Assembly: GCA_022606425.2 (NCBI GenBank)
Contig: JAHDVF020000246.1
Coordinates: 186,001-250,000, forward strand
Source: Lepidostoma basale
Lineage: Eukaryota > Arthropoda > Insecta > Trichoptera > Lepidostomatidae
Length of the DNA: 64,000 nt
Direction: 5' to 3'
A model generated the notes under the pieces. That model searched no databases. It was not told where the DNA came from and worked only from the letters and a program-made list of their open reading frames with translations. A program made the translations under genes and the position numbers. The stretch's first letter is position 1. Every line of letters begins with the position of its first letter. Shown piece by piece: positions 3,144 to 63,703 of the stretch.

Positions 3144-3174
3144 CACATGTTTCGGAGGTGACCTCCATCCTCAA
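3144..3174 (-). ncRNA. hammerhead-like motif, family d
   Basis: Minus strand reads UUGAGGA, a 5-bp helix II (GGAGG with CCUCC), GAAA and then CAUG. The first core base is U rather than C, and the cleavage triplet reads GUG, which is not permitted, so this copy is probably inactive. AT-rich flanks resemble other family d copies (21570, 57500). Confidence 0.55.
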
Positions 3175-3304
3175 GTGTAAATATATAAAAGTTATAAAGT
3201 CCAAAACATGATATGTTAGGTATTTAAAAGTATATATATATACATATTTAAAAAATAAAACTAGAATACGAATAGCGCAGTTAATTTAAATCCAATGTTA
3301 TTTA

Positions 3305-3480
3305 TTCTCTCTTTCTTTTTGCCATTTTTCATCATCTGGGATCGGCCCTCTTCGTACGAAAACGCCAATTTTTTTTATCCTGGATCATCTCCACTGCCAG
3401 GTTATCGTGTAAAAGCTCTTTTTACATGTTGACCCACCATGTTTCCATTGGGCGGCCTATTCCTCTGAGTTTTGTGGGAA
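3305..3480 (-). mobile_element. LINE (RTE-like, family G) C-terminal fragment
   Basis: Minus-strand translation, with one frameshift, gives the pattern RGIGRPMETWWVNM ... MIQDKKNWRFRTKRADP. This matches the usual end of many RTE-like proteins (GRP..RW..., then DR..WR...R.ADP). Only the last 55 or so residues remain. Confidence 0.55.
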
Positions 3481-3815
3481 AGCTGATGTTTTTTTTTAAA
3501 TTTTAATAAGACTGTAGATGTGACTCTGGAAAAACCGATCAGAAATTTACAAAGAAAGGGAAAATTTAGCATTTTATCATTTTTAAGCTAGCATGATATT
3601 ACCCGTTTAACCTTTAAAGATGATTATCTCAGAACACGATGATTTCGAATTTCGAGCTGATTAAAAAATGTCTTAAGTTTCTTTTATAATCACCTTTATT
3701 TTGTGTTGTCGATTCACATTTGAATTAATTGAAAAGCAATTTGTATTTTCACAAAAAAATATATATTTGCCGACATGTTTTGCTATTTTGTTATTATAAC
3801 ATACTCGTATACTCA

Positions 3816-4016
3816 ACAGCGGAAAGAATTGTGGCCCAGTATCTTGCAAAACCAACATCCGGGGACTCTGTCGATAGCTTTCACCGGGTCAATAAAGAGA
3901 AGGTGCAAGTTTTTGCGGTATTTTTCATTGTAATTATTGGTAAGCACAGTCACGTGGACAGTATATGTTGTAGATTTACCCGGAAAGAAACCAAACTGCC
4001 AATCGGTTATCTTCAC
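3816..4016 (-). mobile_element. reverse transcriptase fragment of a non-LTR element
   Basis: A 67-codon minus-strand frame contains QFGFFPGKSTT followed by LHLLFIDPVKAIDRVP. These correspond to reverse transcriptase motif 2 (QFGF.PGRST) and motif 3 (F.D..KA.D.V), which carries the first catalytic aspartate. The YADD motif and the rest of the protein are absent. Which LINE family it belongs to cannot be told from this piece. Confidence 0.75.
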
Positions 4017-4061
4017 AATATTCCATAATATTGTGAATGTAAAATGAGTTCAAAATATAAC

Positions 4062-4682
4062 CCGGGCAAGGCCTATATTGACATATGGCATAGAGTAGCT
4101 GGCTACTTACAATGGCTGGCAAAATTCTTCGAGATAGGATGAGGAACATGGCTATAATAATAATAATATGATATAATCACCTCAAGGGCGCATTAAGACG
4201 TGTTTTAAATCTAAATGTGAACGCTGCATCTGATTGATATTCACGATCGATTAGAAAGTATAATTGAACAAAATATGCAAGTTTTAAATTGGGTATGAAA
4301 TATGAAAAATATGGGTTTTCAGCTTAGATCTGAAATCTGTCGGATCATTTATGCATCTGAGGTGTGAAGGCAGTTTGTTCCAAGCTGATGGACCGGCTAC
4401 CGCAAACGCTCGATCCACGAAATTTGTACTAGGGCAACGGCTATCCTCGAATTCTGCAAGGTAGGGGATATTGTCAGATGGGGTAGACAATGCAGAAAAC
4501 ATTTGAATGCCCACGTGCAGATTATGGATTCATCCTGAATCTTATACGTTGTAAATGAGATTCTATTAAACCTTTGTTCAACCACCAAAAAGATGGAAGG
4601 ATAGCTGGGAATCAACTTACAAAAAAGGGCTAGCGTGAATTAAAGAACAGACCACGGGTCTAAAAGGAGGAAGAAGAAGATA
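4062..4682 (+). mobile_element. RTE-like LINE family B copy, interrupted
   Basis: Two family B pieces flank a foreign insertion at 4156-4434. The left piece (4062-4155) covers the PILTYGI and TLRDRVRNTAI blocks; the right piece (4435-4682) covers the C-terminal blocks and ends in a GAAGAAGAAGA tail. GGCTAT occurs at both junctions (4150-4155 and 4439-4444), as expected for a target duplication of the inserted element. Several stops and frameshifts. Confidence 0.75.
4156..4434 (-). mobile_element. L2/CR1-like LINE, 3' fragment
   Basis: The minus-strand frame from 4514 downwards includes DRAFAVAGPSAWNKLPSHL and FRSKLKTHIF, the well-known C-terminal signature of L2/CR1-group proteins (DRAF.V..P..WN.LP..LR ... 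FK..LKT.LF). After the stop come a short 3' UTR and a tail of ATT units at 4156-4170. The UTR and tail agree with the copy at 14150-14692. It sits inside a family B LINE. Confidence 0.8.
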
Positions 4683-5294
4683 CCATAAATTTATTATTGC
4701 CAATGAAAATGGCAATTATTTATGAAATTTCGACAAAAGTAATAAACTACTTCCAAACGCACCTACAATTTAACGGTCTCTCCACACGAAACTAAGTAAT
4801 TGAATTGACCCCAATGTTGACGCCAGGCAAACAGCGCCAGTCACCGACATGTCGAAATAATATTTTCCCTTTGTCGGGGTTCCCTACCATTATAATATCA
4901 TCTATTCCTCGTAAATTTATTCAATCAAAGTGCTCACAAATACAGGCGATGGAGGCTGTTCGGTTATCCTCCAGTCTGGACGAAATAGGTTTATTAACCA
5001 TAGAAATGTCCCCCAACATTTTTTTCAGCCGGTTCATAATTTCATTTCTCTGATTTATTTTGATTTCATTTGCATTCCATGTCTTTACTTATTTTTGGCA
5101 CATTGCATTTGGCATATTAAGTTAATATTTTGATACCTTTCGTTGCCAGAGCAATCGATATTAATTTTATGTTAATTATTATATAAATTGGAAATCAAAT
5201 CAGTAGTTTAATTCAAGGTTATTGAATAAAATATACATATAAATAATATTATTGTCATAAAATTATATTTTTTTATTTTTATTTTTATATTTAA
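4683..5294. other. stretch without a gene
   Basis: Nothing recognised. The open frames at 4805-5053 and 4930-5133 overlap in different frames and show no protein family features. Confidence 0.4.
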
Positions 5295-5462
5295 AAGGTT
5301 AGTCATGTCAGAAGCCGGAAGAATCGACGTGCGTGTATGACTCGCTGTATGAATGTGGAGAAATCTAGTGAGGTATATCAGGATAGAGTAGTGTGGTGGT
5401 CCATTCTCTCTGCCTACCCCTGGAAACGTCGTGATAGTTTGTTGTTGTTGTTGTTGTTATTA
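5295..5462 (+). mobile_element. RTE-like LINE family A2, last 150 bp
   Basis: Encodes the degraded terminal blocks GHVRSRKNRRACMTRCMN and VVWRSILSAYP and ends in a (TTG)n tail at 5440-5457. 5' truncated. Confidence 0.85.
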
Positions 5463-5499
5463 TCATAATTAAAAATAACGCAGAAATATATGGTATTTT

Positions 5500-5703
5500 T
5501 TTCCTTGTATACAACAGTTCGTTTGAACCGAAAACAAATTATTTTAGCTATTATATTGATTCTCATGACATGTTATAGTTAGCCAATATCGCCATTTTAT
5601 TGTCACGAGAATTCTACACCAGACCAAAAACAGTGTGTCAATCATACTGCCATCGCCGGGAATCGAACCCGGAACCTTCGGTATGAAAGTCATAGCTCTT
5701 ACC
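5500..5703 (-). mobile_element. S1 SINE, second 3'-end type
   Basis: B box region at about 5660-5670 on the minus strand. The 5' end of the head is cut in the A-box area. Its 3' end lacks the AAT tail and instead runs into a GTATACAA-containing segment shared with 54655-54880. Confidence 0.75.
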
Positions 5704-10334: not shown

Positions 10335-11127
10335 TTTAAACAATCCTAAGATAAATAACTTTAACAATACCCTCAACGTGAGACCGCCAGAGTCCTTTTC
10401 AATTAAATGTCGCGTAACTTTATCCAGTACAATAGAAAAGAGAATTTTCCGATAATGAGTCACATCCAATTGAAAATATCGCGTAATAAATATTAAAATG
10501 CCATTGTTTGTCGCTCCAACGAAATGGAGATAATTTAAGCAAATTGAATTCTTTGATTCTATTCCCGATGAAGCAGATGCCTCGCATAGTTTTTCATATC
10601 AATCAATCGGGTTCCCGAGTGCCATTACCGCTGGGAAGAAAGGCCGACGCCTCGTGAGATATAAAACCGGAATAAAAAAGGAATAAAATGCCAAATGTGG
10701 ATACAGAACGGTTTATATTCGGAGCAGATTGAAAGATTTTTATTCCAAATATCGAATTTAGAAAACGTGCTGGTTTATGGTCGTCCGCCGGACATTCGCC
10801 GATACGACAGCAAAGGCGGAAATCGAAAAATGTTTATATTTATCTAGGGAAATATGTATTGATTTTCCTAAGGAAATAATTATTGTCTCCGTTTTACGTA
10901 AACAAGTTGATTGCTGCCTTCGGGGATGACAAAAACGACTTCATTTTACGTTATGCATTTAATTTATTATCAATGTTTGTCGAAATATTACGAAATTAAC
11001 CTTTAATAGTACTTAATATTGAAAAAAACAATAATTTTCAAGTCGTTTTATTTGTTTATGTAATCTTGAAGCTCCGGCGAGAGCAAAACTGTATATTTCT
11101 TCAAAAAAGAGGTGCAAAGACAAAGTT
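10335..11127. other. non-repetitive-looking stretch without a gene
   Basis: No element or gene is recognised. The segment 10560-10820 is richer in G/C than its surroundings and matches none of the window's repeats; it might be single-copy DNA. Confidence 0.35.
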
Positions 11128-11314
11128 AATAAGTAATACGAATGAAAACGTCAGTTTTCTAGAAGTTTTATTATATTTTAGGGGAATGACATGTTTCGCC
11201 CTTCTAAGGCATTTAATACTGACATTTGATAATGCCTTAGATGGGCGAAACATGTCATTTCCATAAAATATAATAAAACTTCTAGAAAACTGACGTTTTC
11301 ATTCGTATTAATTA
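11128..11314. mobile_element. family c foldback element
   Basis: An almost perfect palindrome: the left arm (ATACGAATGAAAACGTCAG ...) returns inverted in the right arm. Each arm has a hammerhead-like block; on the plus strand 11226-11256 reads TTGATAA, a loop, GGGC, GAAA, CATG, TC. Relative to CUGANGA the core has U at position 3 and A at position 8, so activity is unlikely. The 3' flank continues at 11543 beyond a nested family b element. Confidence 0.7.
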
Positions 11315-11324
11315 TTTAATATGG

Positions 11325-11542
11325 ATAATAATTAAATAAAACGATGTTTTTTAACTACTTCCACTTTTGTCTTTATTTAGACAGCGACCGGTTTCGCCAG
11401 GCTCGCTGGCATCGACAGCCTGGCGAAACCGGTCGCTGTCTAAATAAAGACAAAAGTGGAAGTAGTTAAAAAACATCGTTTTATTTATTTATTATTTAAA
11501 ATGAACTTCCATCAAGAGATTTCAGTAAAATCATTTGATTAA
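11325..11542. mobile_element. family b foldback element with 10-bp target duplication
   Basis: A near-perfect palindrome centred near 11405, with arms containing AGTGGAAGTAGTTAAAAAAC and the hammerhead-like GGCGAAACCGGTCGCTGTC. TTTAATATGG flanks it on both sides (11315-11324 and 11543-11552), and the interrupted sequence is the flank of the family c element, as the uninterrupted copy at 56850-57020 shows. The catalytic block before helix II reads GTCGATGCC, so the CUGANGA box is damaged. The close match of the arms suggests youth. Confidence 0.8.
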
Positions 11543-11700
11543 TTTAATATGGAGTTTTACATCATTGTTCAAGAAACAATAAAAAAGTAAATAAGCACTA
11601 TTAAATATGATTTAACTGTTAAAATTTAGACGCTGTTTATTATTTTATTTATTTGCAGTTGACAAAACTCTCCACATAAACGAAAAAAATATTGTTACAC

Positions 11701-11736
11701 CTGATGACGCCAACATCGGTTGGCGAAACAGCTGTC
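11701..11736 (+). ncRNA. hammerhead ribozyme motif, family a
   Basis: CTGATGA at 11701-11707, helix II GCCAAC/GTTGGC closed by ATCG, GAAA at 11725-11728, helix III CAGCTG and the cleavage triplet GTC ending at 11736. The core is complete. Helix I pairing next to the core is poor (C opposite C), so this copy may be inactive. The surrounding family a flank runs from about 11640 to 11850. Confidence 0.75.
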
Positions 11737-11859
11737 CATAAAAAAAATTATACCATAACAGCGTTAAATTGTTACAGTTAAATTTTTCGAAGTTATAAAG
11801 GCTTTCGAGCAAAACAATGAACTATTTAAATGTATTTTTATTATATTTTATAGAAATGG

Positions 11860-12345
11860 CATGTTTCCCCTTGTTAAAATATTTAATATTACCATAGCAA
11901 GGCGTAATATCCCAAGTCATGGACTAGAGTAACCGGTTACGGTGAGTTTTGCAGAGGTGACATGGTTCGCCCTGTTAAGGCATTTGATAATGCCATAGCA
12001 AGGCGTAATATGTCATGTCATTGACTAAAGTAACAAGTGACAGTGAGTTTTGTAGAGGTGACATGGTTTGTCTTGTTAAGGCATTTTATAATGCCATAAG
12101 CAAGGCGTAATATGTCATATCATGGACTAAAGTAACCGGTGACAGTGAGTTTTGTAGAGGTGATATGGTTCGCCCTGTTAAGGCATTTAATAATAGGCAA
12201 GGCGTAATATATCATATCATGGACTAAAGTAACCGGTGACAGTGAGCTTTGTAAAGAAGACATGGTTCGCTCTGTTAAGGCATTTGATAATGGTATAGGA
12301 AGATGTAATATTTCATGTCATAGACCAAAGAAACCGGTAACAGAG
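11860..12345. repeat. tandem array of about 100-bp palindromic units (family c-like)
   Basis: About four and a half units with a spacing of 97-102 bp, recognised by repeated GCAAGGCGTAATAT, GGACTAAAGTAACCGGTGAC and GGTTCGCCCTGTTAAGGCAT. Each unit contains an imperfect inverted repeat (GACATGGTTCGCC... / ...GGCGTAATATGTC) derived from the family c hammerhead-like block. No open frame. Confidence 0.85.
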
Positions 12346-12524
12346 AGTCGCCAGTTCTGGCTTCTAGTCAAAATTATAGAATTAAACTAAATTCTTATTA
12401 CATGCAGGCATATTTGAATTAATATTTTAAAAACAAAACAAATCAAAATACAAGTGTTGTGCAAAAACAATTTACGTATTTAAAAATTATAGTGTTTACG
12501 TATTTAAAAACTTTGAATATAGGC

Positions 12525-15470: not shown

Positions 15471-15547
15471 TTATTATTATTATTCCTGTCAAAATTTAAA
15501 ACACTGTTATAATATCACAATTTATTTTTATTCACTAAGAGTGTCGC

Positions 15548-15583
15548 GACAGCTGTTTCGCCAACCGATGTTGGCATCATCAA
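15548..15583 (-). ncRNA. hammerhead ribozyme motif, family a
   Basis: Minus strand: TTGATGA, helix II GCCAAC/GTTGGC, GAAA, CAGCTG, GTC. One core base differs (U for C at the first position). Confidence 0.6.
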
Positions 15584-15691
15584 GTGTTATAATAAACTTA
15601 AGTGACAAATGAAAAGACTTTTGAAAAAAAATAGTTTTTTGCCCTATAAATAGAAAGTCTTTTCATTTGTCACTTTAGTTTATTGTAACAC

Positions 15692-15727
15692 CTGATGATG
15701 CCGAAATCGGTTGGCGAAACAGCTATT
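15692..15727 (+). ncRNA. hammerhead ribozyme motif, family a
   Basis: CTGATGA, helix II with a GCCGAA/GTTGGC mismatch, GAAA, then CAGCTATT; the CAGCUG palindrome and GUC triplet are altered to ATT. Probably weakened. Confidence 0.6.
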
Positions 15728-15861
15728 GCGAGACTCTTAGTGAATATAAATAAATTTGGATATTATAACAGTGCTTTAAATTTTAACAGTAATAATGTTG
15801 AAGTATCATAGTGTTTCGGCCAAAACAATGGACTATTTTAATTTTTTTTTCTGTAACCGAT

Positions 15862-16082
15862 ATTCACTTCATTACAGCGCGAGCCGAATCAATGTAAAGG
15901 GTATAGCTATTATATTGATTATCTTGCCATGTGATAGGTAGCTAATCTACCGCAATTTTATTGTCACGTGAATTATGCAACAGACCAAAGACAGTGTGAC
16001 AATCACCTTACCATCGCCGGGAATCGAATCCGGGACCTTTGAGGTGGTAGTCAAAGCACTTACCACTCGGCCACGAAGATCT
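15862..16082 (-). mobile_element. S1 SINE
   Basis: Minus strand with A box TGGCCGAGTGG near 16063-16073 and a B box with one change (GGATTCGATTCC). The body extends to AATGTAAAGGGTATAGC, as in the full-length type, but the AAT tail is missing. Confidence 0.85.
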
Positions 16083-21464: not shown

Positions 21465-21660
21465 CCGAGAATTCAATATTAATTTTTAAATTTGAATTAT
21501 TGAATCGAATTTTAAATTCGTTTTTTTATATTAGTCTTCCTTTGTTTAGTTTTTGTTATATGTTTCCACCTGAATATGGAGGTATTCTCCGAAACATGTC
21601 GTGTTTTTTTAAAATATTTTTTGGATTAAACAAAGTTATTATAATTTTCCTAAGTACCTA
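21465..21660 (+). mobile_element. family d hammerhead element
   Basis: Flanks (TTTTTAAATTTGAATTATTG, TAGTCTTCCTTTGTTTAG) match the right arm of the palindrome at 57425-58490, and the hammerhead lies at 21570-21600. Confidence 0.7.
21570..21600 (+). ncRNA. hammerhead ribozyme motif, family d
   Basis: CTGAATA, helix II GGAG/CTCC, GAAA, helix III CATG and GTC. Helix I starts with CAC/GTG next to the core. The second-last core base is U instead of G, so activity is doubtful. Confidence 0.65.
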
Positions 21661-22894: not shown

Positions 22895-23085
22895 CATTAA
22901 ATAGTCCATTAAATTGGCCGAAACACTATGATACTTTAACATTATTACTGTTAAAATTTGAAACACGGTTATATTATAACAATTTCTTTTTATTTACTGA
23001 GAATGTCGCGACAACTGTTTCGCCAACTATTGTTGGCATCATCAGGTGTTACAATAAACTAAAGTTTCAAATGAAAATGAAAATA
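22895..23085 (-). mobile_element. family a hammerhead element
   Basis: Carries the family edge ATAGTGTTTCGGCC on the minus strand, the AACACGGTTATATTATAAC region and a hammerhead at 23010-23045. Its right end meets a LINE A2 copy at about 23090. Confidence 0.75.
23010..23045 (-). ncRNA. hammerhead ribozyme motif, family a
   Basis: Minus strand: CTGATGA, perfect 6-bp helix II GCCAAC/GTTGGC with loop AATA, GAAA, CAGTTG, GTC. The core is complete; the helix III palindrome has one change. Confidence 0.75.
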
Positions 23086-23434: not shown

Positions 23435-23478
23435 ATATCAAACGTGTTTCTGACTACGCAGTCCTTCCTCAGTGATAT
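23435..23478 (-). ncRNA. hammerhead ribozyme motif, family h (most complete in window)
   Basis: On the minus strand a helix I strand AUAUCA lies immediately 5' of CUGAGGA, and its partner UGAUAU immediately 3' of the cleavage site. Between them are helix II GACU/AGUC with loop GCGU, GAAA, the minimal helix III CACG and the UU dinucleotide before the scissile bond. All core positions agree with CUGANGA/GAAA/UH. Helix II is offset from the core by unpaired A and G on one side and A on the other. No second copy of this family is seen. Confidence 0.75.
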
Positions 23479-23504
23479 TATATAGATATTCAAAATATTA
23501 TATA

Positions 23505-34344: not shown

Positions 34345-34510
34345 ATGGTTGATTGTAACACATGATGATGCCAACATCGGTTGGCGAAACAGCTGTCGCG
34401 ACGCTCTCAGTGAATAAAATGAAATTGCGATATTATAACACTGTTTTAAATATTAACAGTAATAATGTTGAAGTTGCATGGTGTTTTGGCCAAAACAATG
34501 GACTATTTAA
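34345..34510 (+). mobile_element. family a hammerhead element, single arm
   Basis: Full right arm of family a: hammerhead (34362-34397), CTCTCAGTGAATAAAATG, the ATATTATAACACTG region and the edge TTTTGGCCAAAACAATGG. Confidence 0.8.
34362..34397 (+). ncRNA. hammerhead ribozyme motif, family a
   Basis: ATGATGA (C to A at the first core base), helix II GCCAAC/GTTGGC with ATCG loop, GAAA, CAGCTG, GTC. The changed C3 should abolish cleavage. Confidence 0.65.
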
Positions 34511-35923: not shown

Positions 35924-37238
35924 TTAGGTGTATAACTTTGCTTCAGCCGTTTTGCAATAGATGGCAGTAGCGGTAAGTGGTAGTTGGAATAAATAGATCA
36001 TAGATGTCATACAATAAGCTTAAGTATTTGTAAACATAACGCCATCGAAATATTAGTCGATTTGTGTCTGCATCATAAAGTTATTCCCGATTAAACATGT
36101 CAGCTTACGAGCCAAATTCTCATCATTTGCGGGAGGTTTTAATTTTATGCTTTAATATGAAGAAATCTGCGGCTGAGGCTCATCGAATGCTCTCAAATTC
36201 CTATGATGAGGCCGCTATTAGTGAAAGAACGTGCCGAGAGTGGTTTCAACCCTTCAAGAACGGTGATTTTAACGTCGAAGACCAGCATGGCGGTGGAAGA
36301 GAGAAGGTTTTCGAAGATGCAGAATTGGAGGCATTACTTGATCAAGACTCGTGTCAAACGCAACAAGAATTGGCAGGATCATTGGGAGTGACGCAACCAG
36401 CCATTTCAAAACGCCTGAAAGTCATGGGAATGATTCAGAAACAATGAAATTGGGTGCCGTACGAGTTGAAGCCGAGAGATGTTGAACGGCATTTGTGTGT
36501 CTGTGAACAGCTGCTTGCAAGGCAAAGACGGAAGGGATTTCTGCATCGCATTGTGACTGGGGACGAGAAATGGGTTCATTACGATAATCCCAAGCGCAGA
36601 AAATCATGTCGTCGAATCTAATCAAATCTTCCACGTCGACGGCCAAACCGAATATTCACGGTTCCACGGTTATGCTCAGTATTTGGTGGGACCAGCATTT
36701 GGTGTATTTGGTCAGTATTTGGTGGGACCAGCTCGGCGTAGTGTATTATGAGTTATTAAAACCGACTGAAACAATCACAGGCGATCGTTATCGAACGCAA
36801 TTAATGCGTTTGAGCCGAGCATTGAAAGACAAACGGCCGCAATACAACGAGAGACATGATAAAGTGATTTTACAGCATGACAATGCTCGACCCCATGTTG
36901 CGAAAGTGGTCAAGACAAACTTGGAAACTTTGAAATGGGAAGTCCTACCCCACCCGCCGTATTCTCCAGACGTTGCTCCCTCGGACTATCACTTGTTTCG
37001 AACAATGGCACACGGCCTAGCTGACCAGCACTTCCGGTTTTATGAAGAAGTAAAAAATTGGATCGCTTCAAAAGATGACAAGTTTTTTCAACGCGGGATT
37101 CGTATGCTGCCCGAAAGATGGGAGAAAGTAGTGGCCAGCGATGGACAATACTTTGAATCATAAATGTATAACCAGTTTTTTACGATAAAGCCTCGAATTT
37201 CGGAAAAAAAAACGGCGGAAGCAAAATTATACACCTAA
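35924..37238 (+). mobile_element. mariner transposon with TA target duplication
   Basis: Terminal inverted repeats begin TTAGGTGTATAACTTTGC on the left and, inverted, TTAGGTGTATAATTTTGC on the right. TA flanks are at 35922-35923 and 37239-37240. The length of 1315 bp is normal for a mariner. The transposase reading frame inside is broken. Confidence 0.9.
36097..37163 (+). pseudogene. mariner transposase, cecropia/mellifera-like
   Basis: Cut-and-paste transposase of the Tc1/mariner superfamily. The start at 36097 gives MSAYEPNSHHLREVLILCF and an N-terminal helix-turn-helix with CREWFQPFKNGDFNVED, then LGVTQPAISKRLKVMG. An in-frame TGA at 36445-36447 interrupts just before WVPYELKPRDVER. The first catalytic aspartate is in HRIVTGDEKWVHYDN (about 36546-36590). 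A frameshift near 36605 moves the reading to another frame, where SIWWDQ occurs twice because of a local duplication (about 36675-36735). The second and third catalytic aspartates lie in LQHDNARPH and SPDVAPSDYHLF, 34 residues apart (D34D). It ends with DGQYFES. The subfamily is judged from memory. Confidence 0.9.
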
Positions 37239-39239: not shown

Positions 39240-39770
39240 TTAATTTGTGGTGTAGCAATATAAAACATTATATGAATATACGTTTATTAGTTTTCCATAT
39301 ATCATCACTTTCTTTTGTTACAACCAACCTGTTTCGCTCCCGCCAGAGCTTCATCAGGTTTACAAAAGACACTAAATCTATATAAATAAAACTCAAAGTG
39401 TGTTATTGTGAAGACCATTTACACGGAAAATAGCCAGCAGATCAAGCACAAAGTTTCAGAATTGATTAAGTGGAATACGACGGTGGTCATAAGCATATTT
39501 TTGTTACGAATCGAGCTAAATTAACTTTATGAATTAATAAATTAATTGATAATTTTCGTAGTAAAGGCGAATATAGACCTTAATAATCGAGCTCTGAGTC
39601 CAATTTTTAGAGTTCATATTCGCTTGGCATGGTCAGATAGCAAATTAGCCGCTTCGTTTGAACGGAAAAATAAAAAAAATAAATAATAAATTGCGTTTTT
39701 TGTCACCCTGCGGGAGCGAAACCGGTTTGTAGTAATAAAATAAAGTGGTGGATAAAATATTAAAATTGTA
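39240..39770. mobile_element. family e hammerhead element
   Basis: Two opposing blocks: an intact hammerhead on minus (39326-39357) and a degraded one on plus (about 39698-39733, CACCCTGCGGGAGC then GAAACCGGTTTGT). They are separated by about 340 bp without coding capacity. Confidence 0.65.
39326..39357 (-). ncRNA. hammerhead ribozyme motif, family e
   Basis: Minus strand: CTGATGA, helix II GCTC/GAGC with a 6-nt loop, GAAA, minimal helix III CAGG, then UU. Helix I is supported beyond the core: CUUUUGU upstream is complementary to ACAAAAG downstream, with an imperfect inner part (AAAC against GGUU). The core is complete. Confidence 0.75.
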
Positions 39771-42485: not shown

Positions 42486-43014
42486 AAAAAAATACACCAT
42501 TGTTCAATATAACAGTTGAAATGCATAATCTTTTTTTTATATATTCCGCTTCGGGCGATGAGGCAGTTACAAATTAATATCATACTGTTTTATTATACAT
42601 GCAGATTAATATAAGTTTGGCCTGAATTGTAGCCAGATGTGCTACGCGAAGAACCCAGCTGTTTGGATATACCTACTACGCTGCTACAATATAGTAGTCG
42701 CTATGTAAATTTTCTAGTTCCTTATACACTTTTTTAGCCTATCTTCTTGGAATAATATTAAGGTATATAGAAAATGAATTAAACTTTATAATTTCATTTT
42801 ATTACTATAAAAAATATCACATAAAACTTGTCTAAAAAGATTACTTTAACTTTGTAAGTTTACAAATACCCAAAGAATTATTGTTCCTATTTTGAGATAA
42901 ATTATTTTTTATAATAAACGCAAACGCTTTGTTGAAAGTTAAGGCGTTAATGCTGTATAATTCCATTGTAATAACTTTGAAATTGAATTAACAATGCTAT
43001 TTTTTTTCCATTCG
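42486..43014. other. AT-rich stretch without a gene
   Basis: 42740-43000 carries a family d-like edge (GTTAAGGCGTTAATGC ... AATTCCATTGTAAT). Confidence 0.4.
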
Positions 43015-43102
43015 AAACATTATGAAACTTCAACATTTAAACTGTTAAAATTTAAAACGCTGTTATAATATCACGTTTCTTTTTATTCACTGTGAGTGTC
43101 GA

Positions 43103-43138
43103 GACAGCTGTTTCGCCAACCGATGTAGGCATCATCAG
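43103..43138 (-). ncRNA. hammerhead ribozyme motif, family a
   Basis: Minus: CTGATGA, helix II GCCTAC/GTTGGC (one mismatch), GAAA, CAGCTG, GTC. Complete core. Confidence 0.75.
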
Positions 43139-43187
43139 GTGTTACAATAAACTAATTAGTGTTACAATAAAAGGTTTATTGTAACAC

Positions 43188-43223
43188 CTGATGATGCTAA
43201 CATCGGTTGGCGAAACAGCTGTC
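43188..43223 (+). ncRNA. hammerhead ribozyme motif, family a
   Basis: Plus: CTGATGA, helix II GCTAAC/GTTGGC (a C replaced by T forms a G-U pair), GAAA, CAGCTG, GTC. Complete core. Confidence 0.75.
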
Positions 43224-43300
43224 GCGATACTCACAGTGAATAATAAGAAAATGCGATATTATAACAGTGTTTTAAATTTTAACAGTAAAAATGTTACACT

Positions 43301-43439: not shown

Positions 43440-43615
43440 TGAAACACTGTTGTAATATCACAATTGATTTAATTTCTATGAAATTGTCCACGTTGATTGT
43501 AACACACGATGATGCAAACATTGATTAGCGAACAGCTGTCAATTAGATAGAAATTATATCAATTGTGATAATATTACAGTGTTTCATTTAAACAGTTAAT
43601 TTAAAGATGCACATA
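43440..43615. mobile_element. worn family a foldback element
   Basis: Arms AACTGTTTAATTGAAACACTG and CAGTGTTTCATTTAAACAGTT are inverted. The central block (43505-43540) keeps GATGATGCAAACATTG ... CGAACAGCTGTC with a broken core. Confidence 0.6.
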
Positions 43616-47816: not shown

Positions 47817-48064
47817 GACCTTCGTGGCCGAGTGTTAAGTGCATTGATTGCCACCCCGAAGGTTCCGGGTTCGATTCCCGGCGAGAGAAGTGTGATTGTC
47901 ACACTGTCTTTGGTCTGGTGTAGAATTCACGTGACAATAAAATGGTAATAGATTAGCTATCACATGTCACGAGAATCACTATAATAGCTACAATACCCTT
48001 TACATCGATTTGGCTCAAGCTGTCATGATGTAAAGAGCGATTCAACAAAATAATAATAATAATA
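47817..48064 (+). mobile_element. S1 SINE, full-length type
   Basis: A box TGGCCGAGTG, B box GGTTCGATTCC near 47868-47878, body, and TGTAAAGAGCGATTCAACAA followed by (AAT)n. Closely similar to 743-1010. Confidence 0.9.
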
Positions 48065-48082
48065 TTTCTATGAAATTGTGGT

Positions 48083-48109
48083 GACACCTGTTTCACCAAT
48101 CATCATCAG
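48083..48109 (-). ncRNA. hammerhead-like motif, family a with collapsed helix II
   Basis: Minus: CTGATGA, then only ATTGGT in place of helix II, GAAA, CAGGTG, TC. The core boxes remain, but helix II is deleted to a few bases. Confidence 0.5.
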
Positions 48110-48167
48110 ATGTAACAATAAGCTGGTTTGCTGTAACAATAAATGATGAAACAAGAAATGAGCAAGA

Positions 48168-49600: not shown

Positions 49601-50243
49601 AACAGCCTTTAAACTTTTGGTTTTTATTTGGTTTAACGTTGTTATTTTGAGTGTATCTTTCTAAAACAGCCTTTAAACTTTTGGTTGTTATTTGGTTTAA
49701 CGTTGTTATTTTGAGTGTATCTTTCTAAAACAGCCTTTAAACTTTTGGTTGTTATTTGGTTTAACGTTGTTATTTTGAGTGTATCTTTCTAAAACAGCCT
49801 TTAAACTTTTGGTTGTTATTTGGTTTAACGTTGTTATTTTGAGTGTATCTTTCTAAAACAGCCTTTAAACTTTTGGTTGTTATTTGGTTTAACGTTGTTA
49901 TTTTGAGTGTATCTTTCTAAAACAGCCTTTAAACTTTTGGTTGTTATTTGGTTTAACGTTGTTATTTTGAGTGTATCTTTCTAAAACGGCCTTTAAACTT
50001 TTGGTTGTTATTTGGTATAACGTTGTTATTTTGAATGTATCTTTCTAAAACCGCCTTTAAACTTTTGGTTGTTATTTGGTATAACGTTGTTATTTTGAGT
50101 GTATCTTTCTAAAACGGCCTTTAAACTTTTGGTTGTTATTTGGTATAACGTTGTTATTTTGAGTGTATCTTTCTAAAACGGCCTTTAAACTTTTGGTTGT
50201 TATTTGGTTTAACGTTGTTATTTTGAGTGTATCTTTCTAAACA
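49601..50243. repeat. 64-bp minisatellite, ten units
   Basis: Ten consecutive units of exactly 64 bp (the CAGCC/CGGCC start recurs at 49603, 49667, 49731 and so on to 50179). Units 1-6 have GGTTTAACG and mostly AACAGCC; later units switch to GGTATAACG and CGGCC, so variants are ordered along the array. Since 64 is not a multiple of three, the array cannot stay open in one frame. Confidence 0.95.
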
Positions 50244-50363
50244 GCGTTCGGTCAATCTATCATATATTGGTTTAATTGCATCTTGGACAATTTCAGGAAT
50301 TAGATTTTCACGTAACGGTCCGAACGCTACCTGAGTTTCCGGTCGGCTTCCTGACGCGCTCAT
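50154..50363 (-). pseudogene. transposase-like coding remnant
   Basis: The minus-strand frame from 50363 starts MSASGSRPETQVAFGPLREN and continues IPEIVQDAIKPIYDRLTERC, then LERYTQNNN. The pattern AIKPIYDRL ... CL..TQNNN recalls a transposase family common in insects (AIKPIY..L ... RCL.G.TQN.NES). The frame then enters the minisatellite, whose units start in the TQNNN codons. No catalytic domain remains. Confidence 0.5.
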
Positions 50364-51240: not shown

Positions 51241-52044
51241 TCTTTCATATATATTTTTTACGTGTATTTCCACATCTTCTTTATATAGCAATCTCATTCC
51301 TATAGCATTTATGCTATGCCAATGAGGGTTCATAAAAAAAATCTGAGGAATAACTACATGAGGGAGTTATCCGTGGCTTTATTACACGCCGTTTCTTTTG
51401 GGAATGCATCTCACACCCATTTCTTTAGTTTAATAAGGGCATATTTCGAGAACTCGGTCGTGCTGGAGGATTTTAGTCATTGTGTCGCTGTTAAATATCT
51501 GCGACAGCAACAACAGATTGTTTAACCTACCGGACACCAGTGGGAACACCAATTAGTCCACGTAACGCGGTCTCATTGGAGATCGACGTCTTTCATATTA
51601 TTGAAAATACATTAAGAAAATAAATACCTACTCTTGACTTAAGAGAGTATCTTGTCTTCCTTATGTCGAATCATCTCTCATGCGTTCTTGGCATTATATT
51701 GTATATATTATATTTTACCTGTACTTAAAATATGCCTTAAACATTAATATTCTTTGTATTGTCTGTTGAGATAATAAACTGATTTGGTATTTATTATTTG
51801 GACTATAACGTATAATATTTAAATTCAGTAATAATAAAACCATTTGTTCAAACGTCATATACGAATAGGTAATCTATAATAAAATTTAAAATCCATAGTA
51901 TTGAATATGAATCTTCTTGAATACCTGCAAAACCAATATTTAAATTCAGTAAATGTTCCATAAATATTTGAAGATTATTTTTGTAAAGAATCATCTTTAC
52001 TACCCCTGATCAGTATGTATATATAGGACTCGGTTTGCAATAGT
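51241..52044. other. stretch without a gene
   Basis: The plus-strand 69-codon frame 51316-51525 is not recognised; no repeats identified. Confidence 0.4.
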
Positions 52045-52142
52045 GTCACCAGTATGTCGATGCCAGCGAGCCTGGTGAAACCGGTCGCTGTCGGAATTAA
52101 GACAAAAGTGGAAGTAGTTAAAAAACATCGTTTTATTTAATT
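52045..52142 (+). mobile_element. family b element, single arm
   Basis: ATGTCGATGCCAGCGAGCC, TGGTGAAACCGGTCGCTGTC, then AAGACAAAAGTGGAAGTAG and AAAAAACATCGTTTTATTT. GTCGATGCC replaces the CUGANGA box. Confidence 0.7.
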
Positions 52143-54654: not shown

Positions 54655-54880
54655 TGTATTCAACAGGTCGTTTGAACCCAATTACTGTATACAATTTATT
54701 TGGGCTATTATATTGATTCTCGTGACATGTGATAGGTAGCCAATCTATCGCCATTTTATTGTCACGTGAATTCTACACCAGACTAAAGACAGTGTGACAA
54801 TCACACTGCCATTGCCGGGGATCGAACCCGGGACCTTCGGAATGAAAGTCAGAGCTCTGACCACTCTGCCACGAAGGTCG
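54655..54880 (-). mobile_element. S1 SINE, second 3'-end type
   Basis: Minus strand: A box TGGCAGAGTGG, B box GGTTCGATCCC (altered), body, then AATCAATATAATAGCCCAAA and a GTATACAGTAATTGGG end, as at 5500-5703. Confidence 0.85.
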
Positions 54881-56459: not shown

Positions 56460-56720
56460 CTTTCTTATAAAGCACTTAACTTGTGGCGTGGCATTAATAA
56501 AAAGAATGTTTTCACACTTTTATTAGTTTTTACAGCACTTTATTTGTTTTTGTTATAAGCAAATGGTTTCGCTCGCGTCGGAGCTTCGTCAGGGTTTCAA
56601 AAGGCATTGGAAGCTCCGGCAGGAGCGAAACCGGTTTGTTTTAACATAAAAAATAAAGTTGGGTAAAAACAAAATAAAGTGTGTCAATATTATTTTTAAT
56701 AATGCCACACCACAAATTAA
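56460..56720. mobile_element. family e foldback element
   Basis: Opposed blocks: minus 56562-56592 (hammerhead) and plus about 56608-56637 (AGCTCCGGCAGGAGCGAAACCGGTTTG without a CUGANGA box). Flanks share TTATTTTTTATGTT and AATTAAGTGCTTCG or complements. Confidence 0.7.
56562..56592 (-). ncRNA. hammerhead ribozyme motif, family e
   Basis: Minus: CTGACGA, helix II GCTC/GAGC, GAAA, CCAT then TT. CUGANGA and GAAA are intact; the minimal helix III CNNG is changed to CCAU. Confidence 0.65.
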
Positions 56721-57424: not shown

Positions 57425-57499
57425 GTACTTTAAAATATACTAAGAATATTGAAAAACTTTGCTTAATCCACTATTTAATAAAAAAATATTAAAAAAAAC

Positions 57500-57527
57500 G
57501 ACATGTTTCGGAGGATGCCATCTTCAG
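57500..57527 (-). ncRNA. hammerhead ribozyme motif, family d
   Basis: Minus: CTGAAGA, then TGGCATCCTCC where the paired arm GGAGG is partly deleted, GAAA, CATG, GTC. Boxes intact, helix II damaged. The partner at 58389 keeps helix II GGAGG/CCTCC but lacks GAAAC. Confidence 0.6.
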
Positions 57528-57819
57528 GTGTAAAAATATAATAAAAACTAAACAAAGAAAGACTGATAAAAAACGCATTTAAAATTCGATACAATAATTC
57601 AAATTTACAAATTAACCTGTGCTATTTGTTATACAAAAAAATATTTTTTAACAGTTAGAACTAAAAACTAAGAACAAAAACTTAACTGTTAGTTCTAACT
57701 GTTAAAAAATAATTATTAATACCTACTTATAACAAATAGCACAGGTTAATTTTTAAATTTGAATTATTGTATCAAATTTTAAATGCGTTTTTATTAGTCT
57801 TTCTTTGTTTAGTTTTTAT

Positions 57820-58365
57820 ACAACAAAAACAACAACAAACCATCACGCCGTTTCCCCGAAGGGGTAGGCAGAGAAAATGGACCGCCACACTACTCTATCC
57901 TGGCAAACCTCTCTAGCTTCCTCCACATTCATACAACGATTCATACACGCACGTCGATTCCTCCGACTTCTAACATGACCAACCTTTAAAATTTGATTAA
58001 TTTTGTCATGCCATGTTTTCCTCGGTCTGCCTCGACTCCGTATCCCATTTACATCATTAACGTATACTTTCTTAACCATTCTTTCTCCTTCCATGCGTTC
58101 CATATGTCCGAACCAACGCAGCGATCCTTTCATAATTTTGTTCATAATACCTTCTTCCGCTCTACATTCCTTTCTTATATCAGCATTTGAGATTCTGTCG
58201 TATATCGTTCTATCACACATACGTCTTAGGGACCTCACCTCTACCGCATTTATTCTACTCTCATCCTTCTTCTGCCAGCTCCATGCTTCGCTTCCATACA
58301 TTAGGGTTGGGACCAGAACTCAATTGTGAACGGCCGTTTTCGCTTTCATTGATAAATTCTTGTTC
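57820..58365 (-). mobile_element. RTE-like LINE family A2 with 10-bp target duplication
   Basis: The frame 58301-57843 (152 codons) encodes MYGSEAWSWQKKDESRINAV, EVRSLRRMCDRTIYDRISN, SLRWFGHMERMEGERMVKKV, RGRPRKTWHDKIN, RNRRACMNRCMNVEEAREVC, DRVVWRSIFSAYPFGETA and stop. A further 60 bp upstream encode NLSMKAKTAVHN. (TTG)n-type tail at 57820-57840. TAGTTTTTAT occurs on both sides (57810-57819 and 58366-58375), which defines both ends of a clean 5'-truncated insertion. Confidence 0.92.
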
Positions 58366-58490
58366 TAGTTTTTATTATATTTTTAAACCTGAAGATGGAG
58401 GTAACCTCCGATTTTTTTATTAAATATATTTTTTTAATTGAATAATTTCAAAGTTTTTCAATTTCCTAAGTATATTACAATGGAATTCCA

Positions 58491-59160: not shown

Positions 59161-60480
59161 TACGAGGTCTGTTCAAAAAGTATCGCGAATTTTATATTTT
59201 TTCAAAAAGTATTTATTTATTCATGAATATCTATTTTGTCCCCTTCAAAGTAATTCCCCTCGGATATAATACATTTATGCCAACGTTTTTTCCAATCCTC
59301 GAAGCACTTAAAAAAATCATTTTTTGTGATCTTGTTCAGCTCCTCCTTCGATGCCGTCTTTATCTCCTCAATCGTGGCGTAGCGTCGTCCTTTCATGGGC
59401 CTCTTCAGTTTTGGAAACAGGAAAAAGTCACAGGGGGCCAGGTCTGGGGAATACGGTGGCTGCGGCACCATTACTGTGTTGTTTTTGGCCAAATATTCGC
59501 GCACAAGCAACGATGTGTGAGCAGGGGCGTTATCATGGTGCAAAAGCCAGTTTTTGTTCTTCCACAAATCCGGGCGTTTCTGGCGGATTGCTTCGCGCAA
59601 ATTGCGCATAACTTGCAGGTAATATTCCTTATTGACCGTACTACCCTGTGGCAAGAACTCATGATGCACCACGCCCCTGCAATCGAAGAAAACTGTGAGC
59701 AAAACCTTCACGTTCGACCGAACTTGGCGCGCTTTTTTTGGTCTTGGCTCATGCGGCAGCTTCCATTGGGATGATTGAGCTTTGGTTTCCACGTCATAAC
59801 CATAAACCCATGATTCGTCACCAGTTATGACCCTCTGGAGCACATTTGGGTCGTCACGGACCGAGTCCAACATCTCCTGAGCAATGTTAACGCGATGCTG
59901 TTTTTGGTCGAAATTGAGCAATTTTGGCACGAATTTCGCGGCGACCCGACTCATGCCCAAATCATTGGTTAAAATCGAATGGCACGAGCCAATCGATATG
60001 TTTAGGTCCTCAGCAACTTCTCTAACGGTGATTCGACGATTGGCTAATACTATTTTCTTCACTTTATCAATGTTTTCGTCTGTTGTTGACGTGCTCGGGC
60101 GTCCGGCACGCTCTTCGTCGTTCATATCTTCTCGGCCCTCTGAGAACATTTTGTACCACCGATAAACGTTGCTTTGGTCCAAGGTAGCTTCACCATATGC
60201 CACAGTCAACATTCAAAATGCGTCCGCGCACTTTATTTTGTTTTTCACACAAAATTTGATACAGATTCTTTGATCCATTTTTTGGAATAGGCAAAAATCG
60301 AAGACGAACCAAAACACATCCAAGCAAAACAGCTGTCAAAAATTAACTAAACATTCAAAATGGCCGACCTTGTCAGCATAAGTAAGGGACATGAGTACCA
60401 ACATAACGCTACAAAAAAATCAAAAATCAAATATACGTAGCCAGCGGAAATTCAAAATTCGCGATACTTTTGACCTCGTA
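59161..60480 (-). mobile_element. mariner transposon, nearly intact
   Basis: The left end TACGAGGTCTGTTC... and right end (inverted) TACGAGGTCAAAAG... share TATCGCGAATTTT; the right repeat lacks 8 bp (TGTTCAAA). TA flanks on both sides. One transposase frame fills the element, on the minus strand. Confidence 0.92.
59217..60278 (-). pseudogene. mariner transposase with a single premature stop
   Basis: Binds the terminal repeats and cuts and pastes the element at TA. From the ATG at 60276-60278 the frame reads MDQRICIKFCVKNKIK, then meets TGA at 60213-60215, and continues without further break for 331 codons to 59217: about 352 residues in all, the normal mariner length. N-terminal helix-turn-helix regions include YRWYKMFSEGREDMNDEERA and ITVREVAEDLNIS. 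Catalytic residues: D in VITGDESWVYGYD, D in LLHHDNAPAHTS, and D in SPDLAPCDFFLFPKLK; the last two are 34 residues apart (D34D). C-terminus GNYFEGDKID. Translation could restart at ATG 60210-60212, giving a protein that lacks the first 22 residues. Confidence 0.93.
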
Positions 60481-61030: not shown

Positions 61031-61099
61031 ATTCAATATATTTTATATTGAATAAATCATATTAAAGATTACAAAAATTATACATATACATATTGATCA

Positions 61100-61250: not shown

Positions 61251-61257
61251 CATCAAC

Positions 61258-61462
61258 ATTCCTTCGTAGCAGAGTGGCAAAGCTATGACTGCCGCATCGA
61301 AGGTCCCGGGTTCGATTCCCGGCGATGGCAGTGTTATTCTCACACTGTTTTTAGTCTGGTGTAGAATTCACCAGACAATAAAATGGCGATAGATTAGCTA
61401 CCTAGCAAATGTCATGAGAATCAATATTATAGGTTAAAAAGGTTGTATACAAAATCTATAAT
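61258..61462 (+). mobile_element. S1 SINE, second 3'-end type
   Basis: CCTTCGTAGCAGAGTGG (A box TAGCAGAGTGG), GGTTCGATTCC B box near 61309-61319, body, then AATCAATATTATAGG and GTTGTATACAAAATC. Confidence 0.88.
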
Positions 61463-61481
61463 AAAATATATGTAATAACTT

Positions 61482-61915: not shown

Positions 61916-62103
61916 ACTAACTAACTAACTAACCATCACGTCTCCTCGAAGGGGTAGGCAGAAAGAATGGACACTTTTCTTTCCTGAAATATTTCTTTTG
62001 CGTTAGCAATAACATTCATACATTTACTTTTATCCTTCTTTTGCCATTTCCACGATTCGCTGGTTTCTATACATAAAGGTCGGTACAATAACACCATTGT
62101 GCA
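61916..62103 (-). mobile_element. RTE-like LINE family A1, internally deleted
   Basis: 3' end with (TTAG)4 at 61916-61931 fused to the upstream VHNGVIVPTFMYRNQRIVEM-like block; the middle is missing. It lies directly upstream of the A1 copy at 61482, both in the same orientation. Confidence 0.75.
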
Positions 62104-62484
62104 GTTGTTGGAGAAGAAATATTTAAATTGATAGAGATTGATATGTTTTATCTCATTTTATAATCATCAAATAGAAACAAGAATATATGATTCGGATATT
62201 TCGTATGACTCGACTTTGCTTGTCCCCGACAATCTTCTGCGACAACGGCTACATAGATTATTTCACCTGCCACCGTGTTCAACCAACCCACCTAAGGTAA
62301 CGCCCGTGGGCAGGGATGTACCCTTTCTAAACCGCATCTCTTTGGATGAGGACATTTTCCACTGTAGTGAGGCTTTATTAAGAAAGCATCTCAAATGTAT
62401 TAAATTGCTAACATACTTGTTTTTTATTCTATCATTCTTCAAAGATTAAAAGTGCTCTTCAAGTTTTTTTTGTTTTTATTTTAA
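62104..62484 (+). other. unrecognised 103-codon open frame
   Basis: The frame 62138-62449 contains LVPDNLLRQRLHRLFHLPPC and RISLDEDIFHCSEALLRKHL. The order NR....EDIF..S...LRK.L faintly recalls the C-terminus of Jockey/CR1-group LINEs. It could be a LINE remnant or chance; not assigned. Confidence 0.3.
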
Positions 62485-62648
62485 CTAACTAACTAACAAA
62501 CCATCAAGCCGTCTCCCCGAAAGGGTAGGCAGAAAGAATGGACTGTCACACTTTAACCGATGCGGCACTCCATCCTTCTCTTTTCGCCCCGCGGGAGACG
62601 CGGTGTGATGGGTTGCGAACCTCATCGCCACCAATAGGCATCTCCCGT
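62485..62648 (-). mobile_element. S2 short element
   Basis: Minus strand: head with CGGGAGA and TCTCCCG closing stem preserved (62641-62647 and about 62590-62597), both inner hairpins, the A1-type tail and (TTAG)n at 62485-62497. Nearly as complete as 28176-28342. Confidence 0.85.
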
Positions 62649-62684
62649 TTTTATTTTATAATTATAAATGATAATTTTTTTCTT

Positions 62685-63526
62685 TTTCTTCTTCTTCTTT
62701 TAATAGATCTGACGATCTGTGACACAGAAATCATGTCTCGTCGGATGATGAGATCCAGCTGTCCCTCCATCTCTTAGGCGGTCTTCCAGGTGGGCGGTGT
62801 CCGGAGGGAATTTCATAAGCGGCTGTATATGCAAGTCTGTCACCATTCATTCGGGCTACATGGTCCCTCCAGTATCTTCTTCTGGATCTACTCCACTGAA
62901 CGATATTCTCTATTTCGCAAGTTTTTCTTATGTCTACGTTGCGGACAGGATCTCGGAGGGTTTTTCCAGTGATTGATCTTAGGACCTTCATTTCCGATGT
63001 TCTTAGTAGTCCCTTGGTTCGCACAGTGTCAGCCTGCGTCTTTACAGCGTACGTCATGATAGGTCGCACGAATGTTTTATAGATTCTGATCTTGCTATCG
63101 ACATGCATTTGCTTGTTCTTCCAGACCAGATACTTCAGGCATCCTGACACGGCAGAGGCTTTACTGACTTGTTCACGTACTTCGGTATAAAGGTCATTTT
63201 GGCTGCAGATCTCTACTCCCAAATATCTGAAACTCATTACTTGCTCTACAGGTATATCATCAACAGTCAGCTTACATCTTGTAGGTTGCCTAGATATAGT
63301 GAGACTTTTTGCTTTGTTGGCTGATATAGCCATATTTAGCCTTTGTGATATTGTGTGGAATTTGTACAACATTCTTTGTAGGTCATCTTCAGACTCTGCT
63401 ATTAATGCGGCATCGTCTGCATAGCAAATGACGTTCACAGTTTTACGGCCCATTTTATAACCTAGTCTCAAGCCAGCTACCTCTTCTATGATTTCGTCCA
63501 TAATAAGATATGGTCCTTCGTCCATA
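62685..63526 (-). mobile_element. RTE-like LINE family B with intact YADD, best copy
   Basis: A 264-codon frame (63525-62731) begins within the reverse transcriptase: EEVAGLRLGYKMGRK, then VICYADDAALIAESEDDLQ carrying the catalytic aspartate pair. Then come LNMAISANKAKSLTISRQPT, VMSFRYLGVEICSQNDLY, ASAVSGCLKYLVWKNKQMHV, PIMTYAVKTQADTVRTKGLL, LRSITGKTLRDPVRNVDIRK, RSRRRYWRDHVARMNGDRLA and GRPPKRWRDSWISSS. A short 3' UTR with CACAGATCGTCAGATCTATT and a GAA tail at 62685-62698 complete the 3' end. The fingers part of the reverse transcriptase and the endonuclease are absent. No stops: a relatively young 5'-truncated insertion, similar to 54890-55303. Confidence 0.92.
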
Positions 63527-63603
63527 TAAGATGATAATTTTAAACTGTTAAATTAAATAACTTTGTTTTATCATCAATATCACAATTGTATTTTATTTTA
63601 CGC

Positions 63604-63639
63604 GACAGCTGTTTCATCAACCTATGTTGATATCATCAG
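63604..63639 (-). ncRNA. hammerhead ribozyme motif, family a
   Basis: Minus: CTGATGA, helix II with ATCAACATAGGTTGAT (perfect 5-bp TCAAC/GTTGA), GAAA, CAGCTG, GTC. Helix I pairs AAC-A-C with GCG-T-style bases as in its partner. Confidence 0.8.
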
Positions 63640-63667
63640 GTGTTACAATAATATATTATTGTAACAC

Positions 63668-63703
63668 CTGATGATGTCAGCATAGGTTGATGAAACAGCT
63701 GTC
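63668..63703 (+). ncRNA. hammerhead ribozyme motif, family a
   Basis: Plus: CTGATGA at 63668-63674, helix II GTCAGC/GTTGAT (weaker than in the partner arm), GAAA, CAGCTG, GTC ending at 63703. Helix I: AACAC before the core pairs with GCGUU after the cleavage site except for one A-C opposition, and further out UUGUA pairs with UACAA (63717-63721). Confidence 0.8.

Follow-up and report, generated by a model that had tools for sequence, protein, structure and literature searches.

What are the many short motifs resembling hammerhead ribozymes (HHRs) that lie along a 64,000-nucleotide stretch of the genome of Lepidostoma basale (the whole of which, 64 kb, is called the window below), and how did they come to be there? 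An earlier note on this DNA had seen in them families of small hammerheads akin to those of Penelope-like elements (PLEs), present at a density that stood out, and had proposed that they would be non-autonomous RNAs mobilised in trans. PLEs are a third class of retroelements, and the mechanism by which they insert is unsettled. The analysis described here leads to a related but different reading, which we hold to be probable: that the sites are the hammerhead motif of PLEs themselves, carried in short insertions that arose when a PLE reverse transcriptase (RT) used both cut target strands to copy the element RNA.

The motif itself is well supported. A descriptor of the hammerhead core (CTGANGA and GAAA, with a helix II of 4 bp or more and 0-2 free bases allowed between CTGANGA and helix II) finds 8 exact sites in the window and 15 near-exact sites, that is, sites with at most one core mismatch. 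Dinucleotide-shuffled controls give a mean of 0.03 exact sites (maximum 1, 60 shuffles) and 0.55 near-exact sites (maximum 2, 20 shuffles), and because of this difference the motif is taken to be real; by eye, the near-exact sites 32066- and 43332- look like products of chance or of bad decay. Adding the helix III block and tolerating two mismatches yields 14 window sites versus 0.25 in the control, and a descriptor in which helix II directly follows CTGANGA finds none in the window. A covariance model built from 17 window sites detects 21 units in the window at E<1e-3, composed of the 17 training rows and four new units (57494-57541-, 48079-48123-, 43492-43544+ and 58375-58419+). Pairs of motifs that face outward within near-perfect palindromes are frequent among these sites. 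The window motifs are a dense population of small hammerhead-ribozyme-like sequences, beyond chance, and the observation of the earlier note, which gave at least 15 sites, is confirmed. They have the type I core, CUGANGA...GAAA closed by helix II, together with an extra base and, in one family (family d, below), U in place of A6.

The existing hammerhead models do not see this population. Run on the window at E<=10, the Rfam hammerhead models give no significant hammerhead and score at background; on three short stretches scanned singly, the sole hammerhead match reaches 12.3 bits versus a cut-off of 34, and all 21 window units are missed. Background covariance scores, which the earlier note had named as evidence that would count against it, are thus obtained with the Rfam models but not with the model that allows the extra base. 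Rfam matches of the window palindromes to microRNA hairpins were rejected as foldback artefacts. Collections of viruses, prokaryote genomes and plasmids contain no match to the window sequence, as expected for an insect repeat.

The sites fall into families that have different helix II sequences and one common plan (the letters a-f used here form a scheme that differs from the a-h of the earlier note). In family a, T is followed by the helix II GCCAAC/GTTGGC, with CAGCTG at helix III; family b has T and GGAGG/CCTCC, with CATG; family c has T and GCC/GGC, with CATG and a decayed core; family d has T and GCCAG/CTGGC, with CCGG and the core CTGTCGA; and family e has A and GCTC/GAGC, with CAGG and similar sequences at helix III. 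More families lie outside the window, for example at L008 (L-numbers denote loci fetched from the L. basale assembly), where A and GCTTG/CAAGC are found with CTAG and the core CTGATGA. In the alignment, 93.1% of helix II cells are paired and 11 cells are changed on both sides, values that were each reached by 0 of 500 shuffles; 4 helix II pairs show a change on both sides, a number reached by 13 of 500 shuffles. The pairing statistic is partly built in, and thereby inflated, because descriptor hits were among the rows, most of which had been chosen partly for pairing. The families and their shared plan are real, and compensatory change in helix II, which the earlier note had set as a check, is present. 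In each family the letter that precedes helix II is the extra base. It stands unpaired after A9, between CTGANGA and helix II, at all 8 exact window sites and at 14 of the 15 near-exact ones. Helix III has a palindromic loop and no more than one or two pairs, an arrangement also described for hammerheads of the axolotl (PMC7229834) and of PLEs (PMC6466107). The tiny palindromic helix III and the hammerhead architecture that had been proposed are borne out.

Insight into the origin of the motif comes from loci elsewhere in the same genome. Among 542 candidates from a genome search for GIY-YIG proteins, 150 were scored and all 150 match at E<=1. Twelve of these loci were fetched, and protein pieces were inspected for 10 of them (all except L021 and L022); nine look PLE-like (L018-L026) and three do not, L015 and L017 being UvrC-like and L016 SLX1-like by eye. 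(The UvrC-like GIY-YIG frames of L015, at G000:C102, and L017, at G000:C729, are long, and these are perhaps symbiont or contaminant contigs.) At seven of the nine PLE-like loci an HHR lies on the same strand, downstream of the frame, at E<1e-3; at the other two the corresponding motif is weaker, with E values of 0.018 and 0.025. The motif is positioned a few hundred bases downstream of the RT/GIY-YIG frame. It belongs to family b at L018, where only the GIY-YIG part is seen, and to family d at L020-L023 and L026. Two further family d loci carry both domains by Pfam: L027, with a 747-aa frame containing RVT_1 and GIY-YIG, and L029, with RT and GIY-YIG. Among 7995 scored sequences, 1874 are homologous to the L027 protein at E<=0.001; the relatives are insect and metagenome RT proteins, and some of these are also marked GIY-YIG. 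(Judged by its sequence, the protein P0183 is a relative of PLEs; the name it bears in the database, nicotine oxidoreductase, looks wrong.) L027, L028 and L029 are arranged head to head with inverted arms, which at L029 extend over 1136 nt with 100% identity.

Families b and d are therefore the terminal motif, located in the pseudo-long terminal repeats (pLTRs), of PLEs with RT/GIY-YIG frames in the same genome, and the kinship with PLEs that had been suspected is confirmed for them. The other families are likely to be PLE hammerhead motifs too. (L019 was dropped as proof of a link between family a and PLEs; its family a pair is a separate insertion.) In the window itself, regular expressions for GIY-YIG and RT motifs find no match, and Pfam finds no GIY-YIG in 10 window open reading frames (ORFs), so that no PLE RT is visible there, as had been stated. 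Pfam does report a mariner-type transposase in two of these ORFs and an RT domain in one, the rest being sub-threshold or without a match; one RT-type window frame has matches among insect retroelement proteins, including those of beetles and flies.

Using the assembly (G000; 768.8 Mb in 1572 contigs), it has been possible to ask how common the motif is. A sub-pattern in which helix II starts with G-C, C-G has 13,134 exact copies, all with the extra base, versus 1 in the reversed control. The same sub-pattern lacking the extra base has 19 copies, many of which resemble, by eye, one-base deletions of the same families; with 13,134 copies on one side and 19 on the other, the extra base is a fixed feature within this sub-pattern. 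The exact family d motif, with U for A6, has 7,597 copies. In a comparison sample of 120 kb from five contigs, picked without regard to the motif (twelve stretches, L003-L014, with six on the same contig as the window and three on that of L001), 8 exact sites occur, each with one extra base although 0-3 were allowed. The sample also has 16 model matches at E<1e-3, to be compared with 21 in the window, on which the model was trained. With 8 exact sites in 120 kb versus 8 in 64 kb, the density of the window is ordinary for this genome, and the idea that it is special falls away. By simple proportion, from one model and one small sample, the genome total would be on the order of 100,000 units. 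A genome-wide search with the Rfam model Hammerhead_1 gave 94,533 first-look candidates, of which 73 were scored and 1 exceeded the cut-off; the model threads this one (L001) through another inverted element, with a loop II of 72 nt.

The way in which the copies were inserted is recorded in their ends. Family d copies have their 3' ends at about +93-104 or +141-147 nt from C3, and 12 of the 15 family a copies stop near +96-108 or +150. The two main ends, short and tailed, are thus ~45-50 nt apart, and the 5' truncation is variable. In particular, one short and one tailed arm are present in 8 of 8 family d elements that were not chosen for a tail (L020, L021, L022, L023, L027, L028, L029 and the window element at 11.4 kb); L026 also fits this layout, with an incomplete partner arm. 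When 30 family d arms were chosen for their tail and a partner was sought within 1.5 kb, 18 of the 19 partners gave a one-tailed element (p ~4e-5 if independent and equal). Among family a pairs whose partner match spans 113 nt or more, 9 of 9 are one-tailed; the partner stops at the short site in six and before it in three.

Target-site duplications (TSDs) of 10-16 nt are present at 7 of 7 family d elements examined, including the window element, where the TSD is ATTTAATATGGA (12 nt), and TSDs of at least 10 nt are found at 15 of the 19 partnered d arms; mismatched flank pairs, used as a control, give at most 9 nt in 90 trials. The TSD of L027 means little, because this locus lies in a TA repeat. 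At the family a loci L004 and L011 a TSD is seen by eye. (A target-site motif starting with CA is not claimed, since the query already included the first bases of one TSD.) Neighbouring exact d motifs no more than 1.2 kb apart are divergent in 13 of 16 pairs, tandem in 3 and convergent in none, among the places listed. In addition, the elements form a size series, with the window copies at its short end, that leads up to elements with the 747-aa frame. The PLE traits of TSD, 5' truncation, optional tail and inverted pLTRs are present in families d and a, with the exception of TSDs at the three family a palindromes of the window. The window copies, 5'-truncated, ORF-less and often head to head, are likely to be leftovers of PLE insertions; the best-preserved of them, at 11325-11541, is the one with the 12-nt TSD. 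The view that the sites are independent non-autonomous RNAs or retrozymes is not supported: families b and d are the pLTR motif of PLEs, and the window copies are best seen as truncated insertions.

A mechanism that would yield such products begins with a PLE ribonucleoprotein, which would nick AT-rich DNA on both strands. Each strand would then prime reverse transcription at an internal position of the RNA, downstream from the ribozyme, with one of two start sites used per strand. From there each cDNA would extend back across the ribozyme to the pLTR, long ones also reaching the upstream ORF, and the two cDNAs would be joined head to head wherever each stops; the steps between strand priming and the final product are those that we infer. 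It is the arrangement of one short and one tailed arm that points to priming on both target strands, since equal outer ends are expected of a single cDNA that folds back, whereas two strand-primed cDNAs would have the unequal ends that are observed. Published work offers parallels. For Poseidon PAc, a PLE of Anolis carolinensis, both strands are described as nicked and extended in vitro with no strand difference in start site, and RT is reported to start internally, 111-118 nt into an ORF that has the ribozyme at its start, using two start sites (PMC11167929). PLE anatomy with inverted pLTRs and an optional tail on one of them has been described as well (PMC3846280). By analogy, the two ends of families d and a resemble this optional tail and the two PAc start sites.

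The alternative that survives best keeps the PLE identity and changes the mechanism: one cDNA would prime itself by folding back, or snapping back, and copy itself on an antisense template, as has been proposed for Adineta vaga (PMC3846280). Such self-priming would account for arms that are nearly identical and for head-to-head junctions that are palindromic. Near-identical arms, however, fit one template RNA or near-identical RNAs, and so do not help in choosing a mechanism; the substitutions between arms number 2, 0 and 1 within L027, L028 and L029. What separates the two mechanisms is the outer ends, which by our reckoning snap-back should leave matching, but which are one-tailed in 8/8, 18/19 and 9/9 cases, mostly at the same two positions. 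Snap-back is therefore judged unlikely.

Several observations weigh against copying from both target strands or against the wider PLE identity. Three of the 15 family a copies end at +53, +57 and +127, at neither main site; 11 of the 30 tail-chosen d arms have no partner in reach; L033 is the sole exception to the one-tail rule among the 19 d partners; and the family d and a hits were ranked by similarity, with 40 of 800 (d) and 40 of 3441 (a) candidates scored. No TSD was found at the three window family a palindromes, and in this analysis the PLE frames have no link to family a, c, e or f. Two distinct RNA templates are not supported, because the test of L027-L029 found no case in which both arm alleles are shared by other loci, and these sequences would also be compatible with one arm having served as the template of the other. 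As for the ribozyme, helix I is weakly supported in most units (4 of 18 have p<0.06 versus shuffled flanks), and the hammerhead fold is near the minimum-energy fold in one of three units folded.

The divergent layout also bears on a second alternative, that the units are non-LTR retrozymes, self-standing circular RNAs with type I hammerheads that are mobilised in trans by PLE proteins. Their small size, their AT-richness and a weak, sometimes palindromic helix III recall the animal retrozymes as these are described in PMC7229834, and no PLE RT is seen in the window. Animal retrozymes, however, are described there as tandem repeats of 150-450 bp with circular RNAs, whereas the present units are mainly singles and divergent pairs (13 of 16 d pairs), with tandem layout in a minority (3 of 16); moreover, family b and d units adjoin PLE frames, and family d has tail ends of the PLE type. 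This explanation is accordingly very improbable. Foldback or MITE-type (miniature inverted-repeat) DNA transposons, whose ends would resemble hammerheads by chance, share the long terminal inverted repeats and small size, but are hardly credible in view of the asymmetric ends, the variable 5' truncation, the size series up to RT/GIY-YIG elements, the unpaired solos, a core and helix II constrained as in a hammerhead and, for family d, L027-L029, which already speak against them.

Under the preferred reading, that PLE RT copied element RNA from both cut strands, the role of the ribozyme can be considered separately. The 40 top-ranked family d copies are 98-100% identical over 163-166 nt, and the best 40 family a copies (query excluded) are 89-94% identical. 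U replaces A6 in 58 of 63 family d motif instances (from fetched loci, some overlapping). In another hammerhead, the change A6C gave an activity below 0.1 per minute (PMC3088659), and family d is by analogy probably a poor catalyst. With a helix III of one or two bp and a palindromic loop, the ribozymes might be active chiefly as dimers of tandem transcripts. Within a palindromic copy, the two motifs would lie enclosed in a single long hairpin, and the palindromic d element of the window is indeed predicted to form a single hairpin (-133.6 kcal/mol) that hides both. Insertion of PAc in vitro is reported to be independent of cleavage (PMC11167929). A more specific version, offered tentatively and at somewhat less than even chance, holds that PLE insertion is two-ended and uses both RT start sites in each event, that the one-tailed palindrome is the primary product, and that ribozyme cleavage is dispensable; the last part rests on the existence of a uniform family that has reached over 7,500 exact copies with U in place of A6 in its core and with the extra base fixed.

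The population is of a known kind with new mechanistic detail, and the one-tail rule, the extra base and the U6 core are not claimed to be absent from print. PLEs whose pLTRs contain minimal type I hammerheads were reportedly described by Cervera and de la Pena in 2014, and small PLE hammerhead variants are said by Lunse, Weinberg and Breaker (2017) to cleave as dimers. The present motifs share with those variants the diminished stem III, the palindromic loop and the association with PLEs; they differ in that many copies are head to head, not tandem. In the account of a review of PLEs with minimal type I hammerheads in pLTRs (PMC7761336), the motif likewise has thousands of dispersed non-coding copies and the element a single ORF with RT and GIY-YIG; set against that description, the motifs here have an extra base between A9 and helix II in nearly all counted copies and, in family d, U for A6. 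Bdelloid Penelope elements (PMC3846280) are similar in their head-to-head inverted pLTRs and in a tail that is optional on one inverted copy, and the likenesses extend to TSDs (8-10 bp in the bdelloid elements), solo pLTRs and a TATA box in the pLTR; here, the copy number lets the one-tail pattern be counted, and there are ORF-less palindromes of ~220-360 bp. Poseidon PAc (PMC11167929) has a ribozyme at the ORF start, AT-rich targets, internal RT starts that match genomic 3' ends, and nicking and extension of both strands; in vitro it shows no strand difference in start site, whereas here there is one end type per arm.

Features of the window. E values are from the covariance model trained on 17 window sites; a point in the strand column marks features without strand.
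Feature	Position	Strand	Basis and remarks
Complete ORF-less head-to-head PLE insertion, family d	11325..11541	.	Inverted repeat; 3' ends as in PLE-linked family d copies; TSD
Outward arms of the 11325..11541 element	11325-11403 and 11417-11495		99% complementary; left short, right tailed
Left TSD, ATTTAATATGGA	11314..11325	.	Last base common to element end; checked against printed sequence
Right TSD, ATTTAATATGGA	11542..11553	.	Sequence
HHR, family d, core CTGTCGA (U at A6), palindromic CCGG at helix III	11380..11432	-	E=5.6e-8
HHR, family d, solo	52040..52092	+	E=4.8e-7
HHR, family c, core TTGATAA, inside palindrome 11121-11323	11212..11262	+	E=2.7e-8
HHR, family a, CAGCTG at helix III	11687..11740	+	E=1.3e-12
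Head-to-head family a element	15479..15842	.	Inverted repeat, covariance model; HHR 15544-15597(-) in short arm, HHR 15678-15731(+) in tailed arm; CTATAAATAG upstream of (+) HHR
HHR, family a, decayed, GTAA for GAAA	16759..16812	+	E=1.9e-9
HHR, family b, CATG at helix III	21556..21606	+	E=2.8e-7
HHR, family a, solo	23006..23059	-	E=9.5e-14
HHR-like, possible family f	23435..23486	-	E=0.97, not significant; helix I p=0.047, 7 bp against core; G-A mismatch in helix II
HHR, family b, core TTGAGGA	3138..3188	-	E=1.9e-8
HHR, family a, only start of inverted partner	34348..34401	+	E=2.5e-14
HHR, family e, CAGG at helix III	39320..39371	-	E=1.1e-8
Truncated outward partner of 39320..39371 motif	39695-39733	+	E=2.7
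Head-to-head family a element	43012..43295	.	HHR 43099-43152(-), truncated tail; HHR 43174-43227(+), short arm
HHR, family a, decayed	43492..43544	+	E=4.8e-5
HHR relic, family a, helix II mostly deleted	48079..48123	-	E=1.9e-6
HHR, family e	56555..56606	-	E=5.3e-7
HHR, family b, left of outward-facing pair	57494..57541	-	E=1.1e-7
HHR, family b, right of pair with 57494..57541, GATT for GAAA	58375..58419	+	E=7.4e-4
Head-to-head family a element	63537..63780	.	HHR 63600-63653(-), short arm; HHR 63654-63707(+), tailed, internal deletion (by eye)

Other repeats lie among these features. The outward-facing family b motifs at 57494-58419 flank ~0.8 kb of sequence, within which lies part of a LINE-type frame; this may reflect capture by a PLE or a later insertion. 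A 101-bp tandem array of 5 copies (11846-12348) has a unit that resembles, by eye, a decayed family c hammerhead palindrome. A satellite with a 64-bp unit is present in 10 copies with 98% matches at 49601-50245. Five tRNA-like stretches with low tRNA scores (744-815, 16009-16080, 47818-47889, 54807-54878 and 61260-61330) are probably copies of a tRNA-derived short interspersed element. An open 331-aa mariner-type transposase frame is found at 59217-60212 (-), and mariner-type fragments at 36079-37163 (+).

The value of this population lies in counts that bear on how PLEs insert and on whether their ribozymes are relevant. As a practical matter, it exposes a gap, in that the Rfam hammerhead models are blind to all 21 units of the window. 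The bdelloid study of 2013 left self-priming and its alternatives open (PMC3846280), and the role of PLE hammerheads has been called a mystery (PMC7761336). With 13,134 and 7,597 exact copies in a single genome, the insertion mechanism and the role of the hammerhead become counting problems: the asymmetry of arm ends discriminates priming on two strands from snap-back, and the U6 family, together with the 19 copies that lack the extra base, provides natural variants that bear on whether cleavage matters.

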